A DNA stretch of 64,000 nucleotides from Salinisphaera sp. LB1. Its GTDB lineage: Bacteria; Pseudomonadota; Gammaproteobacteria; Nevskiales; Salinisphaeraceae. Location of the stretch: contig NZ_CP029488.1 in NCBI RefSeq assembly GCF_003177035.1, positions 2,418,001-2,482,000 of the forward strand. The letters run 5' to 3'. The notes under the pieces are model-generated. The model had not been told where the DNA came from. It did not search any database and saw nothing but the letters and a program-made list of their open reading frames with translations. How positions within the stretch are numbered: the stretch's first letter is position 1; every line of letters starts with the position of its first letter. Made by a program: the position numbers and the translations under genes. Positions 41,928 to 63,361 of this stretch are shown piece after piece.

Positions 41928-42096
41928 GAAGGCTGCTCGAAGGGGGCTTTTTATGCAAAGTGCGCTCTAAGAGCTTGGTAACCTGCTCTCTACTCTACCC
42001 GGACGATGTTCTGAAGACGTGGTATGTATCCGGTTTCCCCGGTATCCTTGACGTTCAACACGATTGTTCACATAACAATTCCGAACGCGCGGAGAT

Positions 42097-57693: not shown

Positions 57694-59049
57694 ATGCACA
57701 TCCATATTCTGGGAATCGGCGGCACGTTCATGGCGGGTGTGGCGCTGCTGGCGCGGGCAGCGGGGCATACGGTAACGGGCTCCGACCAGGGGCTCTATCC
57801 GCCCATGAGCACTCAGCTGGCCGAGGCCGGCATCGCGGTCATGGACGGCTATGCGCCGAGCCATCTGGAGCCGGCGCCGGATCAGGTCGTGGTCGGCAAC
57901 GCGATGGCGCGCGGTAATGCCGCGATCGAATACATGCTGGACGCGGGGCTCGCCTACACCTCGGGCCCCCAGTGGCTGGCCGATAACGTACTCGCGGATC
58001 GCTGGGTGCTGGCGGTGGCCGGCACGCATGGCAAAACCACCACCGCGAGCATGCTCGCGCACATACTGATCGACCAGGGTGCCGCACCCGGCTGGCTGAT
58101 CGGCGGCATCGCCGCGGATCTGGGGGCCTCGGCAGCGCTCGGTAGTTCCAAGTGGTTCGTGGTCGAGGCCGACGAGTACGACACGGCCTTTTTCGACAAG
58201 CGCTCGAAGTTCGTCCACTACCGGCCGCGCACGCTGATTCTCAACAATCTCGAGTTCGATCACGCCGATATTTTCGATGACCTGGCCGCGATCCAGCGCC
58301 AGTTCCATCATCTGCTTCGCACCGTGCCGGGCTCGGGGCGCATCGTGCACAACGCGGCCGACGCGGCGCTTGATACCGTCATCGCACAGGGCTGCTGGAC
58401 GCCGCGGGTCCCATTCAACGGCGCGGCAGGGTGGCATGTCGAGCCCCTGCGCCCGGATCATGGTCGACTGCGCATTTATCGGGGCCCCGAAGTCGTCGGC
58501 GAACTGGCCTGGGCGCTCAAGGGCGCCCACAACGCCGCGAATGCCTGCGCCGCGATCGCCGCAGCCGAGCACGCCGGCGTCGAGCCGCGCGCTGCCATCG
58601 GCGCGCTGGCCGGATTTCGTGGCGTCAAGCGGCGACTGGAACTCCGCGGCACGCCGGGCGGGGTGGCGGTCTATGACGATTTCGCGCATCACCCGACCGC
58701 TATCCGCACGACGCTGGATGGCCTGACCGCGGGGCGGCCGAAAGGACGCGTGCTGGTGGCCTTCGAGCCGCGCTCGAATACCATGCGGGCCGGGGTGCAC
58801 GAGCACACCCTGGCGGCCAGCTTCGAAAGCGCGGACCGTGTTTACGGCTACGACGCCGGCATCGACTGGGACCTGGCCGGCGCCATGCGTGCCCTCGGCG
58901 ATCGGTTCCGTGCAGTCGATGATATCGACGCGCTGGTGGCGGCGATCGCGGCCGAGGCGCGCCCGGGTGATGTCGTCGTGGTGATGAGCAATGGCGGCTT
59001 CGGCGGTATTCACGACAAACTGCTCGCCGCGCTTGAACCCCGCGCCTGA
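57694..59049 (+). CDS. mpl: UDP-MurNAc:L-Ala-gamma-D-Glu-meso-Dap ligase
   Basis: 451 residues (E. coli Mpl 457). Mur-ligase motifs: N-terminal Rossmann HIHILGIGGTFMAGVALLAR, ATP-binding AGTHGKTTTASML near residue 110, the catalytic Glu/Asp stretch FVVEADEYDTAFFDKRSKFVHY and the later NNLEFDHADIFDDL, plus ALKGAHNAANACAA and YDDFAHHPTAI of the C-domain. It reattaches the murein tripeptide released during wall turnover to UDP-MurNAc, so it serves peptidoglycan recycling in the cytosol. A 9-bp inverted repeat (GCGCCTGTT/AACAGGCGC) at 59074-59093 follows its stop, without a T-run. Confidence 0.95.
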   Translation: MHIHILGIGGTFMAGVALLARAAGHTVTGSDQGLYPPMSTQLAEAGIAVMDGYAPSHLEPAPDQVVVGNAMARGNAAIEYMLDAGLAYTSGPQWLADNVLADRWVLAVAGTHGKTTTASMLAHILIDQGAAPGWLIGGIAADLGASAALGSSKWFVVEADEYDTAFFDKRSKFVHYRPRTLILNNLEFDHADIFDDLAAIQRQFHHLLRTVPGSGRIVHNAADAALDTVIAQGCWTPRVPFNGAAGWHVEPLRPDHGRLRIYRGPEVVGELAWALKGAHNAANACAAIAAAEHAGVEPRAAIGALAGFRGVKRRLELRGTPGGVAVYDDFAHHPTAIRTTLDGLTAGRPKGRVLVAFEPRSNTMRAGVHEHTLAASFESADRVYGYDAGIDWDLAGAMRALGDRFRAVDDIDALVAAIAAEARPGDVVVVMSNGGFGGIHDKLLAALEPRA

Positions 59050-59176
59050 CCGGCGTCCCCGCCCGCGGAACAAGCGCCTGTTGGAACAGGCGCCAAGCGT
59101 ATCCTGCGACCGGGTTCGCAAGGCGGCCCGGACCGTCGGGGCCGGCGCGTTCAGACGCCGGCCCCGGGTCGGGCAT

Positions 59177-59201
59177 AAAAAAGGCCGCGATTCGCGGCCT
59201 T
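59177..59201 (-). terminator. Minus-strand rho-independent terminator between mpl and glrR
   Basis: 9-bp perfect stem AAGGCCGCG / CGCGGCCTT with a 3-base loop, followed on the minus strand by six T. It points away from mpl and toward no annotated minus-strand gene, supporting a separate minus-strand transcript. Confidence 0.85.
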
Positions 59202-59704
59202 GAGAGGGCGGTGACCCGCCCGTGCTTTTCTTCTTTGATAATCCGCCGAGTCGGGCCGGGCTACGCCGAGGCACGAGGGGGGGACCGGGAGAACCCCCGG
59301 CCCGACCGGCGAAACGGGTGCGTGGCTGCGCTGCAGGACATCGGAAAAATTCGCTCTGGCCGGGCCGTTAACGCCGAGGCACGAGGGGGGGACCGGGGAA
59401 ACCGGCCCGACCAGGCGAACCCATGTCGCGCAATCACGCGAACTCTGTTGAACAAGCCACCAGGTGTCGGTTCGACTGTGCGGTTGCCGACGATTCGTGG
59501 GTTGTTCCGACTGTTCAAACTCCTTTGTTGTGATCCGATCGCCACTTCCGACAATCATCCGTGCGAATAGCCGAATCCTCGACATGACGGCAACGGTCAT
59601 CGCCAGTCCGTGCCACCCTGGCGCGCGAAGCGTGGGGCGGCAGCGTCGAAGCCTGTCGGCCGTTCGTTATCGGTGCTGCAAGTGCGGTCTGTCGTCCGAA
59701 TTTG
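59177..59704 (-). ncRNA. Candidate sigma-54/GlrR-controlled small RNA with twin modules
   Basis: Predicted transcript from about 59704, 12 bases after the sigma-54 element, to the terminator at 59177-59201, about 530 nt or shorter if processed. Two homologous modules stand 108 nt apart. Each has an outer stem (59361-59367 with 59403-59409, CGGGCCG/CGGCCCG; and 59250-59257 with 59299-59306, GTCGGGCC/GGCCCGAC), an inner CCGG...CCGG hairpin, and a 27-base block identical in both (59263-59289 and 59371-59397) whose transcript reads CCCGGUCCCCCCCUCGUGCC and onward, mostly unpaired. A 149-codon frame crosses the region but lacks a Shine-Dalgarno and family features. GlmY-like control is inferred; sequence similarity to GlmY or GlmZ is not evident. 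Confidence 0.6.
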
Positions 59705-59715
59705 TTTAGGGTTTA

Positions 59716-59731
59716 GCAACCGCCGTGCCAG
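59716..59731 (-). promoter_or_regulatory. Consensus sigma-54 promoter
   Basis: Reading leftward: CTGGCACGGCGGTTGCT, with TGGCAC at 59730-59725 and TTGC at 59719-59716, five bases between. This matches the sigma-54 (-24/-12) consensus TGGCAC(G)-N4-TTGC(A/T) at every fixed position. Expected start near 59704. Confidence 0.85.
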
Positions 59732-59750
59732 AAAAAGGAAAATAAATTAA

Positions 59751-59763
59751 TATCAATAACTTA
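59751..59763 (+). promoter_or_regulatory. IHF binding site
   Basis: TATCAATAACTTA matches WATCAANNNNTTR at all fixed positions. It sits in an AT-rich island between the sigma-54 promoter and the upstream palindromes, where DNA bending would let a bound activator reach the polymerase. Confidence 0.75.
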
Positions 59764-59826
59764 TAAATACAATTAAGCACTTCCGGCGCGCCCGGCCAGC
59801 GGATCGGGCCCAGTGGCGCGGAAAAC

Positions 59827-59844
59827 CGTCGCCAATCAGCGACG
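59827..59844. promoter_or_regulatory. GlrR-type activator site 3 (proximal)
   Basis: CGTC-N10-GACG: half-sites differ by one base each from TGTC/GACA, and the palindrome is symmetric. About 130 bases upstream of the predicted start. Confidence 0.6.
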
Positions 59845-59890
59845 GATGGCTTAGTTATTATTTAAGTAATTGAATATAAATATAAAATAA

Positions 59891-59908
59891 TGTCGCCATG
59901 AGGCGACA
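59891..59908. promoter_or_regulatory. GlrR-type activator site 2, also a possible glrR terminator
   Basis: TGTC-N10-GACA, exact match to the sequence recognised by GlrR at enterobacterial glmY. The same palindrome (8-bp stem with a 4-base loop, then TATTTTATA on the minus strand) could also act as the transcription terminator of the glrK-qseG-glrR operon. Confidence 0.75.
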
Positions 59909-59934
59909 TAAAGCACGGGAACGGCACCAATGGT

Positions 59935-59952
59935 TGTCGTCTACGGGCAACA
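59935..59952. promoter_or_regulatory. GlrR-type activator site 1 (distal)
   Basis: TGTC-N10-AACA, seven of eight fixed bases. It lies between the glrR stop and site 2, whose centre is 44 bases away. Confidence 0.5.
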
Positions 59953-59959
59953 GCCGGAT

Positions 59960-61324
59960 TCAGGACTTGAACTGCCCCGGATCGACATCGTGACGCGCCA
60001 GCAGCTTGTAAAATTCGGTGCGGTTGCGCTGGGCGAGCCGGGCGCTTCGGGCGACGTTGCCTTCGGTGATGCGCAATAACTGGACGAGGTAGTCGTGCAC
60101 GAACTCGTCCCGCGCCTGTGCCAGGGGCCGGATGCTCGAGGCCGACGCGTCGGGGCCGCCGTGCTGGGCCAGCGCCTTGTCTACGGCGGCACGGCCGATC
60201 ACCGGGCCGCGCGTGAGCGCGACATTGTGTTCGACCACGTTGGACAGTTGCCGAATATTGCCCGGCCAGCTGTACGCCGTAAGCCGTTCCATGGCTTCGG
60301 GGGCATAGACCTTGGCCCGTCGCCCCGATCGGCGCGCGAGGCGATCCAGGAAATGCCGCACCAGGGGCGCGATGTCTTCGGGCCGCTCGGCAAGTGAAGG
60401 CAGTGCCAGGCTGACCACGGCCAGACGATAGTAGAGATCCTCGCGGAACGTGCCCTCGTTGATGGCCGTATCCAGATTACGGTGGGTGGCCGAGATCACG
60501 CGCACGTCTACCGGGATGCTATGCCGGCCGCCGACCGGCCGGATCTCGCGTTCCTGGAGTACGCGCAGGAGCTTGACCTGAAGGGCGATCGGCATATCGC
60601 CGATTTCGTCCAGAAAGAGGGTGCCGCCCTCGGCCGAGCGGAACAGCCCGGGCTGGGCGCTCTTGGCATCGGTGAATGCGCCTTTTTCGTGGCCGAACAG
60701 TTCCGACTCCAGCAACTGCTCGGGCATGGCGCCGCAGTTCAACGCCACGAACGCGTGCTGGGCGCGCGGGCTGGCTTCATGCATGACACGCGCCATGACT
60801 TCCTTGCCGGTGCCGGATTCGCCGGTGATCAGCACGCTGGAGTCGGTCTCGGCCACCATTCGGCCCTCGGCCAGCCGTTCCCGCATGAGCGGCGAGCGGG
60901 TCACGATGCGCGCCTGCCAGATCGATTCCCAGTCGCGGCTGGGCAAGCCGCCCTGGGCCAGGGCCTGGTCGACGCGGGCCAGCAGCGTTTCCTTGTCCAC
61001 CGGCTTGGAAAGAAAATCGAGCGCGCCGGCCTGGGTCGCCGACACGGCTTCGGGGATCGTGCCGTGGGCCGTGATGACGATGACCGGAATATTGGGGTGA
61101 TTGGCCGATAGCCGTTGCAGCAGGTCGAGCCCGTCCATGCCGTCCATGCGCAGATCGGTGATCACGCACTCGGCGGCGAAGTCGCCCAGGATATCGAGCG
61201 CGCGGTCGGCGCTTTCGACGCTGGCCACGGTGTGTCCGACGCCTTGGAGGCGAATGGTCATCAAGCGACGCAGGCTCGGGTCGTCGTCGACCAGCAGCAG
61301 CCGGCCCTTTCGGTGTTCGGTCAC
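59960..61324 (-). CDS. glrR: Sigma-54 response regulator GlrR (QseF)
   Basis: 454 residues, start GTG at 61324 overlapping the qseG-like stop (GTGA). Receiver domain: [12 protein letters not shown], phosphoacceptor Asp in [12 protein letters not shown] (about residue 55), Lys in [11 protein letters not shown]+ domain: Walker A GESGTGKE, the sigma-54 contact loop [13 protein letters not shown], Walker [14 protein letters not shown] and [10 protein letters not shown]. The C-terminal helix-turn-helix ([20 protein letters not shown]) fits the Fis type. In enterobacteria GlrR activates glmY from a sigma-54 promoter. Here three GlrR-like sites and such a promoter lie directly after the gene. Confidence 0.95.
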
Positions 61325-61902
61325 GGGTGTTTCTCGACAGTATCCAGGCGGTCTTCGATGTTCGACAGCGCCTTGAGTTTGTTCTGGGCCTTCGCCAGCC
61401 GTGCCTTGAGATCCGCGATCTTCTGCGCTGCGTCACTGGGCTCATCGGCGTTGGCCTGGGTCAGTTCGCCGTAGAGACGGGCATAGTCGCTCAGGTACTG
61501 GCGGGCATCGGGGTCCCAGGGCGCCGGCTTGGTGTTGAGCGCCAGGCTGGCGTAGCGCGCGGCCTCGTCGGGCGTATAAAGCCGCTGGTGCGGCGATCCG
61601 AGCGCCAGCGCCAGATAGGCATAGCTGATTGCGCTCGGGCTGGTCCGAACCTGGCGGCGGGCCGTGCGTACGGCGGCTTCGCGCCCGGCCGGTGTTGTGT
61701 CCGCCAGCCGGCGGGCATAGCTGAGCAGAGTCAACGCGGGGGCGGACATTTCAGGTGGCGTCTGCGCGGTTGCCGACGGGTTGCCCTTGTCGAGCGCGCA
61801 GCCCGATACGGCCAGGACCGTAGCCAGGCCGAGCGCGACTGCCAGCCCCCGTCGTGGCGTGCGCTGCTCAGGCGCGCCCGTTCCGGCGTGGGATATGCAC
61901 AT
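61321..61902 (-). CDS. qseG: QseG-like lipoprotein of the GlrKR operon
   Basis: 193 residues from the ATG at 61902. After a basic lead, LAVALGLATVLAVSGC gives a lipobox VSGC. The mature part is helical, with a tetratricopeptide-like AISYAYLALALGSPHQRLYT region and a C-terminal coiled coil (KIADLKARLAKAQNKLKALSNIEDRL). Position between glrK and glrR and these features match QseG, the outer-membrane lipoprotein that modulates the GlrK kinase in enterobacteria; sequence similarity is weak, so the name rests on context. It overlaps glrK by 35 bases and glrR by four, indicating tight coupling. Confidence 0.75.
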   Translation of the reverse strand: MCISHAGTGAPEQRTPRRGLAVALGLATVLAVSGCALDKGNPSATAQTPPEMSAPALTLLSYARRLADTTPAGREAAVRTARRQVRTSPSAISYAYLALALGSPHQRLYTPDEAARYASLALNTKPAPWDPDARQYLSDYARLYGELTQANADEPSDAAQKIADLKARLAKAQNKLKALSNIEDRLDTVEKHP

Positions 61903-63361
61903 GGAAAACGCTGTCGCGATGCCCGCGCACGACCACCTGCGCGTAGCCGCCATGGGCTTCGGCGCAGTCGCGCACCACCGACAGGCCGATGCCGGTCCCC
62001 TTGACCGCGGACTTGCCGCCGGGCGTGCTGCTGCCGCGGACGAAGGCTTCGAAGATACGTTCTCGTTCGGTTGTCGCCACGCCGGGCCCGTCATCCGATA
62101 CATATAGATCCGTCCCCTCTGTCGGGCCGTATTCGACCTCGATACGGATAGTGCCGCCCATCGGCGAAAATTTGACTGCATTCGCCAGCAGATTATCCAC
62201 GATCAGGTGCAATCGATCCCGGTCAGCGCTGAGTATGACCGGTGACCGCGGTCGATCGACGCGCAGATCGCGTGCCTCGATGGCCAGTTTCTGGCGTTCG
62301 ACCATGCGTTCGATCAGCGCCGCCAGATCGAATTCGGTGTACTCCAGGCGCGCCCTCTGTTGCTGCCAGGTCGCCGAATTGAGCAGATTGTCGATCAGCG
62401 CCGCCAGATCCTGGCTGTTGCTCTGCAGAATCGTGGCCACCTCGCGCTGTGCCTCGCTCAAAACGCCGACCGAGCCGTCAGCGAGCAGTTCCGTACCTTC
62501 GCGGATGCTGGCCAGCGGTGTCTTGAGTTCGTGCGACATGTGCCGGATGAACTGTTGTTTCTCCTCGTCGAGCGTGGCCAGACGCTGGCGCATCCAGTCC
62601 AGACGCTCACCGAGGCGATCGAGTTCGGCCGCCGGCGCGACGATCGACACCGGGCGCGAGAAATCGCCCGTGCCCAGATGACTGACGGCATCCAGAATCT
62701 GGCGCAGCGGACGCGCGATGACAAAGGTCAAAAATAACCCGAGCGCCACGGCCGCAGGAATCAGGGCAAACACGCAGACGAGCAGGAACAGCCGCGCATG
62801 GCGCGCCGTGCGCTGCAGATGATCGAGCTCCTGGTCGACGAACCGGGCGCCCTGATCGGCGATGGCATCGGTCGAGTGGCGGATTGTGTTCAGCGTGCTG
62901 ATGACCTGATCGGTCTGCTTGTCGCCGGTGCCAAGTCGCTGGGCCAAACCGGCCACTTGCTCGCGCAGCGATGACAGATTCCAGCTCGGCACCGTATCCA
63001 GATGCAGGCGGGCCAGGGACTTGAGTTCGCCCTCGAATGCCTGGGCCTGTGAGCGGAAGCGATCGACCAGGTCGGCCTGGCCGAGTACGCGATACTGGCG
63101 GGCACTGCGTTCCATGCTGATCAGCAGGCTGTTGAGGCGTTTGCTGTCGCGCGTGACGGCGACGCCCTGCATCACCAGCCGCTCGCTCTGCGCATTGAGC
63201 TGATTGACATAGACCACGCTGGCCACGATCGCGACCATCAGCGGTGTGGCCACGACGGCGAAGCTGGCCAGCACCAGGCCGTTGATCGAGCGCGGACGCA
63301 GCAGCACGCCGAGCAGCCGGCGGCGGGCCGAGGTCTCGTTGTGGGAATCGCCTCTGGGCAT
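61868..63361 (-). CDS. glrK: Sensor histidine kinase GlrK (QseE)
   Basis: 497 residues. Membrane helix 1 at about residues 28-50 (NGLVLASFAVVATPLMVAIV), a periplasmic helical domain of about 130 residues, helix 2 about 190-212 (LFLLVCVFALIPAAVALGLF), HAMP, then the kinase core: HMSHELKTPLASIREG with the phosphorylated His, the N box LLANAVKFSP, DDGPGV (G1) and GTGIGLSVV (G2). It senses envelope state and phosphorylates GlrR. It is the first gene of the operon glrK-qseG-glrR; the promoter must lie in the 94 bases shared with the divergent pmbA. Confidence 0.94.
   Translation of the reverse strand: MPRGDSHNETSARRRLLGVLLRPRSINGLVLASFAVVATPLMVAIVASVVYVNQLNAQSERLVMQGVAVTRDSKRLNSLLISMERSARQYRVLGQADLVDRFRSQAQAFEGELKSLARLHLDTVPSWNLSSLREQVAGLAQRLGTGDKQTDQVISTLNTIRHSTDAIADQGARFVDQELDHLQRTARHARLFLLVCVFALIPAAVALGLFLTFVIARPLRQILDAVSHLGTGDFSRPVSIVAPAAELDRLGERLDWMRQRLATLDEEKQQFIRHMSHELKTPLASIREGTELLADGSVGVLSEAQREVATILQSNSQDLAALIDNLLNSATWQQQRARLEYTEFDLAALIERMVERQKLAIEARDLRVDRPRSPVILSADRDRLHLIVDNLLANAVKFSPMGGTIRIEVEYGPTEGTDLYVSDDGPGVATTERERIFEAFVRGSSTPGGKSAVKGTGIGLSVVRDCAEAHGGYAQVVVRGHRDSVFHVHIPRRNGRA

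Follow-up and report, generated by a model that had tools for sequence, protein, structure and literature searches.

The window analysed in this study is a 64 kb stretch of the Salinisphaera sp. LB1 genome. On its minus strand, a predicted RNA lies 3' of the glrK-qseG-glrR operon and is convergent with mpl. The features of this locus are as follows.

61868..63361, minus strand: glrK (qseE), sensor kinase with HisKA, HAMP and HATPase_c domains
61321..62181, minus strand: qseG-like ORF overlapping glrK, assigned by position and tblastn matches in relatives, with no Pfam match
59960..61324, minus strand: glrR (qseF), response regulator, assigned by Pfam domains and 54.7% identity to a Klebsiella record annotated as GlrR
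59935..59952, minus strand: GlrR-type operator 1, TGTTGCCCGTAGACGACA, fitting TGT-N12-ACA, 222 bp upstream of the sigma-54 site
59891..59908, minus strand: GlrR-type operator 2, TGTCGCCTCATGGCGACA, exact TGTC-N10-GACA, 178 bp upstream of the sigma-54 site
59827..59844, minus strand: weak GlrR-type operator 3, CGTC-N10-GACG, read in the sequence
59715..59730, minus strand: sigma-54 promoter, TGGCACGGCGGTTGCT, exact consensus
59177..59704, minus strand: predicted transcript of ~528 nt, its start placed from the sigma-54 site and its end from the terminator
59423..59600, minus strand: fossil EF-hand ORF, limits approximate, from alignment with the sister genome (G006) and three-frame translation
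59345..59422, minus strand: module 1, covarying stem with C7 loop; fold -39.8 kcal/mol, z -2.9; 76.0 bits with covariance model R1, whose building set included it
59237..59316, minus strand: module 2, covarying stem with C7 loop; fold -43.0 kcal/mol, z -2.3; 62.9 bits with R1, whose building set likewise included it
59177..59201, minus strand: intrinsic terminator, 9-bp stem (59201-59181) running into T6, z -4.5

The real start of the qseG-like ORF is probably further in than the listed frame gives. Both the sigma-54 promoter and the strong same-strand terminator that the first-pass annotation had described were recovered here. The promoter at 59730-59715 is the sole exact match to TGGCAC-N5-TTGCW within the window, and TGGCAC-N5-TTGC is present in all 13 other Salinisphaera genomes too. 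The operator consensus, TGT-N12-ACA, is the GlrR binding-site pattern given in PMC6075780. A site of the operator 1 type was found 216-223 bp upstream of the sigma-54 site in 9 of the 14 genus genomes, and one of the operator 2 type (TGT-N12-ACA with at most one mismatch) at 175-180 bp in all of them except G006 (13/14). Cognates of operator 3 with at most one mismatch lie 110-113 bp upstream in 10/14, the copy in the window having two mismatches. These conserved distances from the sigma-54 site were counted as support for GlrR control: the glrR product is the likely activator, and GlrR/sigma-54 control of the transcript appears very likely from the arrangement of its sites.

The two modules in the window form a 56-nt direct repeat, 77% identical at a spacing of 108, and have in common a 27-nt block (CCCGGTCCCCCCCTCGTGCCTCGGCGT), as had been noticed at first reading. 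To trace them in relatives, R1 was built from 37 of 39 modules (38 from the genus and one from G015, a sister genus). When R1 was run with strict filters across 85 genomes of the order, 38 modules were found in all 14 Salinisphaera genomes, the numbers per genome from G000 (the genome of the window) to G013 being 2, 2, 2, 4, 3, 3, 2, 5, 3, 2, 2, 3, 3 and 2. The covariance modelling over homologous regions that had been proposed as a check thus gave a positive outcome, with stems that covary. The arrays adjoin mpl in 14/14 genomes and lie between glrR and mpl in 13/14; the contig of G007 begins after glrR. By blastn against 61 genomes, the stretch had a match at E 4e-4 or better in 13/13 congeneric genomes. 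Some match at E 0.1 was present in 44/61 genomes; beyond Salinisphaera, G015 gave the best one (E 1.9e-6), and the others were short and weak.

G015 contains one module and one weak antisense match by R1. The module is located directly 3' of a sigma-54-like site, and glrR of this organism is on another contig. A second, diverged C-loop hairpin was also noticed in G015 (L045 4098-4162; 17.3 bits, E 0.039, fold z -6.3), which lies behind its own operator-like and sigma-54-like site and has a T-run. R1 detected no module in G014 and G016, which belong to the same family as Salinisphaera, and had no match in 69 of the 85 order genomes. The one weak match in G074 (E 8.9e-4 in the 85-genome search) was attributed to chance, and a C-rich stretch 3' of glrR in G021, which does not fold stably, was excluded from the count (z +0.7, 12 bits, E 1.8).

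A pattern scan of contigs from 84,980 species returned 20 stretches. Two or more copies were present in 12 of them: Salinisphaera orenii, S. japonica, S. shabanensis, S. halophila, S. hydrothermalis, five unnamed Salinisphaera, a record named Endozoicomonas sp. G2_2 and one Lysobacterales MAG. The remaining eight were single matches in other classes or phyla, and about that many are expected by chance according to a rough estimate. The same scan gave 0 matches in viral contigs. The Endozoicomonas sp. G2_2 record (L091) carries a Salinisphaera array and is probably misnamed.

Alignment A3, from which four weak antisense R1 matches had been removed beforehand by a stricter cut-off, places the stem at columns 4-9/76-81 and 13-23/64-73 (6 + 10 pairs). 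Over 38 distinct modules, 94.4% of cells are paired as the 23-pair structure requires, compared with at most 46.9% when it is slid along the alignment. Cells changed on both sides numbered 31, compared with a mean of 10.6 in shuffled alignments (0/500 as high) and at most 13 when slid. Eight pairs were double-changed (4/500 shuffles as high; 9 when slid +3), a number that by itself is not decisive, and there were 26 further pair types (39/500 shuffles as high). With the same structure, the structure-blind MAFFT alignment A1, which leaves out two of the 39 modules (G007_m4 and G012_m2), gave 25 both-side cells vs 9.9 (0/500 as high; up to 22 when slid -2), 7 double-changed pairs (46/500; 9 when slid +3) and 26 pair types (193/500). 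Because the rows are related, and because R1 and A3 were made from the very modules they describe, all these pair counts are inflated and should not be read as probabilities.

The main covariation support falls on columns 8-9/76-77, 14/72 and 18-23/64-68 of A3. While the stems vary across modules, the loop is nearly invariant over at least 20 nt and includes a GGU/GCC mini-helix that is paired in 37 of 38 distinct rows. The C-tract of the 39 modules is 5 (3 modules), 6 (24), 7 (10) or 8 (2) nt long. Covariation in these alignments supports a stem of 16 pairs that displays the nearly invariant C-rich loop. The outer stem of the first-pass annotation is therefore paired and covarying as claimed, with 6 + 10 pairs rather than 7-8 bp. 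The inner CCGG hairpin, which had been thought to be kept paired by selection, did not fare so well: its pairs are formed in 90.1% of cells, equal to shuffles, none changed on both sides, and two of the four are broken, in 5 and 7 of the 38 distinct rows. The whole 529-nt stretch folds with modest stability only (z -2.2), and the comparative evidence for a structured RNA is stronger than fold stability. That a structured, conserved module array is real appears close to certain. The linkers 3' of the modules are AU-rich (GCGAAAUUUA and similar). By eye, they often have a small hairpin of their own (e.g. GGCAGCCCGGCUGCC; L034, L042), which is also seen 5' of module 1.

The absence of a convincing gene 3' of the sigma-54 promoter, noted at first reading, holds for the window but not for most of the genus. 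In 9/14 genomes the transcript contains, 5' of the modules, an ORF for a secreted EF-hand protein of 93-98 codons (longest start). Counted from the first base of the sigma-54 site, it begins at 31-61 nt, and it ends 45-69 nt before the first C-tract; all three ORFs tested among the nine matched Pfam EF-hand families. By sequence, the array in these nine genomes is in the 3' part of the EF-hand mRNA before the terminator, which is not the case in the window, where the ORF has decayed. The ORF region of the window aligns with that of G006 with many gaps and no whole frame. A 149-codon frame (59151-59600) starts within the fossil, and its ITTKEFEQSEQPTNRRQ corresponds to VTKKEFKQYERHMKRRQ of G006. 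No intact EF-hand orthologue was found elsewhere in the genome of the window, the best candidate being 43% identical over 74 residues of a 272-codon frame. G002 has an ORF remnant, and alignment and translation revealed no recognisable trace in G009, G010 and G013.

When the window is compared with G006, identity reaches 90.9% and 93.4% for the two modules, vs 54.0% for the leader/ORF region; the modules are thus the constrained part. Identity in the operator region is 54.9%. Parsimony on an Mpl tree of 15 rows, among them G015, gives four changes in the state of the ORF, and two changes are forced by well-supported branches. In all five ORF-less genomes the sigma-54 site and a terminal T-run are still present, the run being at least T6 in four of them and T5 in G002. 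All five also have two modules, which suggests that loss of the ORF may accompany a smaller array; the nine ORF-bearing genomes have from 2 (two genomes) to 5. We see an even chance that these arrays constitute a new RNA family, one whose tandem regulatory module originated in a 3'UTR and came to be the part under selection, the EF-hand gene being lost at least twice in the genus (remnants in G000 and G002, intact in the sister G006) with the array kept, so that an mRNA turned into a stand-alone non-coding RNA.

Comparison of the genomes established, as far as sequences can tell, the module, its structure, its synteny and the loss of the ORF with retention of the modules. The explanation that we prefer, with a probability of roughly 48%, is a multi-module regulatory RNA under GlrR/sigma-54 control, born in the 3'UTR of an EF-hand mRNA and acting in trans, most likely by base pairing. 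Such an RNA would have arisen in the 3' untranslated region of the mRNA for a small secreted EF-hand protein as 2-5 tandem modules, each a long hairpin with one common C-rich loop. The coding part has decayed in the window, leaving the array as the only evident product there. It would be transcribed from the sigma-54 site with GlrR as the activator, and cleavage in the linkers, plausibly by RNase E since they are AU-rich, may free modules of ~80 nt. The loops could then work in trans when the envelope is under stress; base pairing to G-rich translation-initiation regions would be the most likely means. A function in trans is likely, given that modules are retained after loss of the ORF. Base pairing as the mode of action is uncertain, with the odds about equal on either side. 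The drift of the C-tract between 5 and 8 nt suits pairing with G-tracts, whereas the length of the conserved block exceeds that of a usual seed, a point in favour of recognition by a protein and against pairing. The preferred explanation is also weakened by the two modules of all five ORF-less genomes, compared with 2-5 in the others.

The search for targets did not give a clear answer. Sites of the form ACGAGGGGG-N3-11-ATG, matched to the loop, numbered 25 in the 14 genomes (2 of them antisense to modules) vs 31 and 26 for two scrambled patterns, so that enrichment of Shine-Dalgarno sites over scrambles is not clear. Backward-read controls (2 for the loop-matched pattern vs 8 and 8 for the scrambles) slightly favour the loop-matched pattern, the numbers being small. 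Among ORFs 3' of loop-matched sites, the sole orthologous group seen more than once is that of a secreted protein, present in 3/14 genomes (G003, G005 and G007). A long complement of the loop, searched as a 14-mer with one mismatch, had 41 matches, 38 of them the modules and 3 elsewhere. This lack of clear Shine-Dalgarno enrichment, the single recurring candidate and the few near-complements weaken the case for pairing. It is possible that pairing occurs through the short C-tract alone, and few targets would suffice.

The recurring secreted small protein, the sole recurring candidate target, has a conserved GAGACGAGGGGGA before its start (L123, L125, L133). In the window, a pattern match occurs at 41941, at the dynamin-like gene. 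The porin, suggested earlier as a target through AGGGGG, is not supported: an orthologue (E 1e-40) was found in 7/14 genomes, that of the window among them, and the motif is absent from the start regions of all five readable relatives among the six with an orthologue, that of G002 not being readable.

The main and close rival to base pairing, itself rather unlikely in our estimate, is that the modules are repeated sites of a multivalent sponge, made under GlrR/sigma-54, that titrates an RNA-binding protein. CsrB/RsmZ and CrcZ are RNAs that titrate their proteins in this way, and CsrB/RsmZ carry GGA motifs in their loops. The 2-5 copies on linkers of variable length would fit a sponge, as would the nearly invariant loop of at least 20 nt with its paired mini-helix and the failure of searches in the 14 genomes to find a conserved complementary target. 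On the other hand, a strict protein site would not usually have a C-tract varying from 5 to 8 nt, no CA-rich motif and, unlike in CsrB/RsmZ, no GGA motif occurs in the loops of the 38 genus modules, and no candidate for the partner protein was identified.

It is less probable still that the hairpins act in cis, protecting or controlling the EF-hand mRNA, with the array of the window a relic. The location of the array directly after the EF-hand ORF in 9/14 genomes agrees with a cis role, and the low copy number of the ORF-less genomes (2 vs 2-5) is what relaxed selection might give. However, 5/5 ORF-less genomes keep the sigma-54 site and the T-run end, and the modules of the window and G006 are 91-93% identical compared with 54% in the ORF region.

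A decoy for RapZ that controls GlmS as in enterobacteria appears quite improbable. According to PMC6075780, the sRNA gene glmY of E. coli is driven by GlrR (QseF) through a sigma-54 promoter that has three TGT-N12-ACA sites. The array resembles GlmY, as described in PMC6075780, in adjoining glrK-qseG-glrR, in its sigma-54 promoter with three operators, here judged by sequence, and in a link to an envelope regulon; the activator type is alike, and a RapZ-family gene is situated about 5.4 kb beyond the window. Unlike GlmY, which lies upstream of glrK, the array is 3' of glrR, and it consists of several near-identical tandem modules that are usually attached to an EF-hand ORF. None of the 12 Rfam matches obtained with E values of up to 5 is to a GlmY/GlmZ model.

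Finally, a translated repeat protein is hardly credible: the 149-codon frame does span both modules at the window's spacing of 108, but module spacing is a multiple of three in only 6/24 intervals, the frame has no Pfam match and the changes follow base pairing, so that conservation of this frame as protein, named in advance as grounds for giving up the RNA, was not observed.

The RNA had been regarded as undescribed, and Rfam indeed has no match at the gathering threshold over the window. The 12 sub-threshold matches (59040-59970) were considered chance, the best being group-II-D1D4-2 with E 0.017 on the plus strand. Several known RNAs show partial likeness to the multi-module RNA that we prefer. 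NrsZ of Pseudomonas has repeated modules as well; it differs in being ~226 nt long and activated by NtrC, the likely activator of the array being GlrR, and the absence of an Rfam match bears on this comparison only if NrsZ is among the Rfam models. The Gram-positive sRNAs IsrR and RoxS act through C-rich motifs, a likeness to the array at the level of motif description, and differ from it in that loop-matched target sites are not clearly enriched for the array. The gene glnA is under sigma-54 control. GlnZ is an sRNA released from the 3'UTR of glnA, a regulated mRNA, as stated in PMC9731577. The array would share with it such an origin, and may be released by processing in a similar way; unlike GlnZ, its modules are repeated and its ORF was repeatedly lost.

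A search of titles and abstract openings, with most subscription journals outside its scope, found no paper on this RNA or on a GlrR-linked EF-hand gene, and none naming both GlrR and EF-hand. For sRNAs of Salinisphaera it found nothing relevant, the sole match concerning an MRSA strain. If the preferred explanation is true, control of a regulatory RNA by GlrR (QseF) extends beyond enterobacteria and to an unrelated RNA. Moreover, the fourteen related genomes seem to catch the conversion of an mRNA into an sRNA at several stages, with the ORF intact, decayed or gone, and it becomes testable whether 3'UTR RNAs can outlive their genes.

A GlrR-linked EF-hand gene is further indicated in scattered Gammaproteobacteria. 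GlrR was detected at E 1e-140 or better in 56/276 genomes of the class, and the flanks 3' of glrR were examined at 38 loci outside the genus (27 class-wide and 11 others). Exact TGTC-N10-GACA occurs in 8 of these flanks, a sigma-54 match within 900 nt in 9, and TGT-N12-ACA together with a sigma-54 site in 5. Reading eleven of the loci by eye revealed a small secreted EF-hand gene 3' of glrR in five (G335, G192, G213, G187 and G221); this is a lower bound, a strict regular expression applied to all 38 having found 3. All five genes are behind a sigma-54 or near-consensus site, most with GlrR-type operators (G213 has no operator match), and four of the five proteins, not that of G335, passed the Pfam curated cut-off. 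It is likely, judging from these flanks, that the GlrR-linked EF-hand gene is an old and apparently undescribed GlrR target. The EF-hand unit with its GlrR/sigma-54 control seems to be old, and the module array appears to have been added to its 3'UTR in Salinisphaeraceae.

The five EF-hand loci (L209, L193, L197, L191 and L185) come from five distant Gammaproteobacteria. In G022 (L100), GlrR-type operators and a sigma-54 site 3' of glrR are followed by a short peptide and a second protein, which we take to be BON-like and periplasmic.
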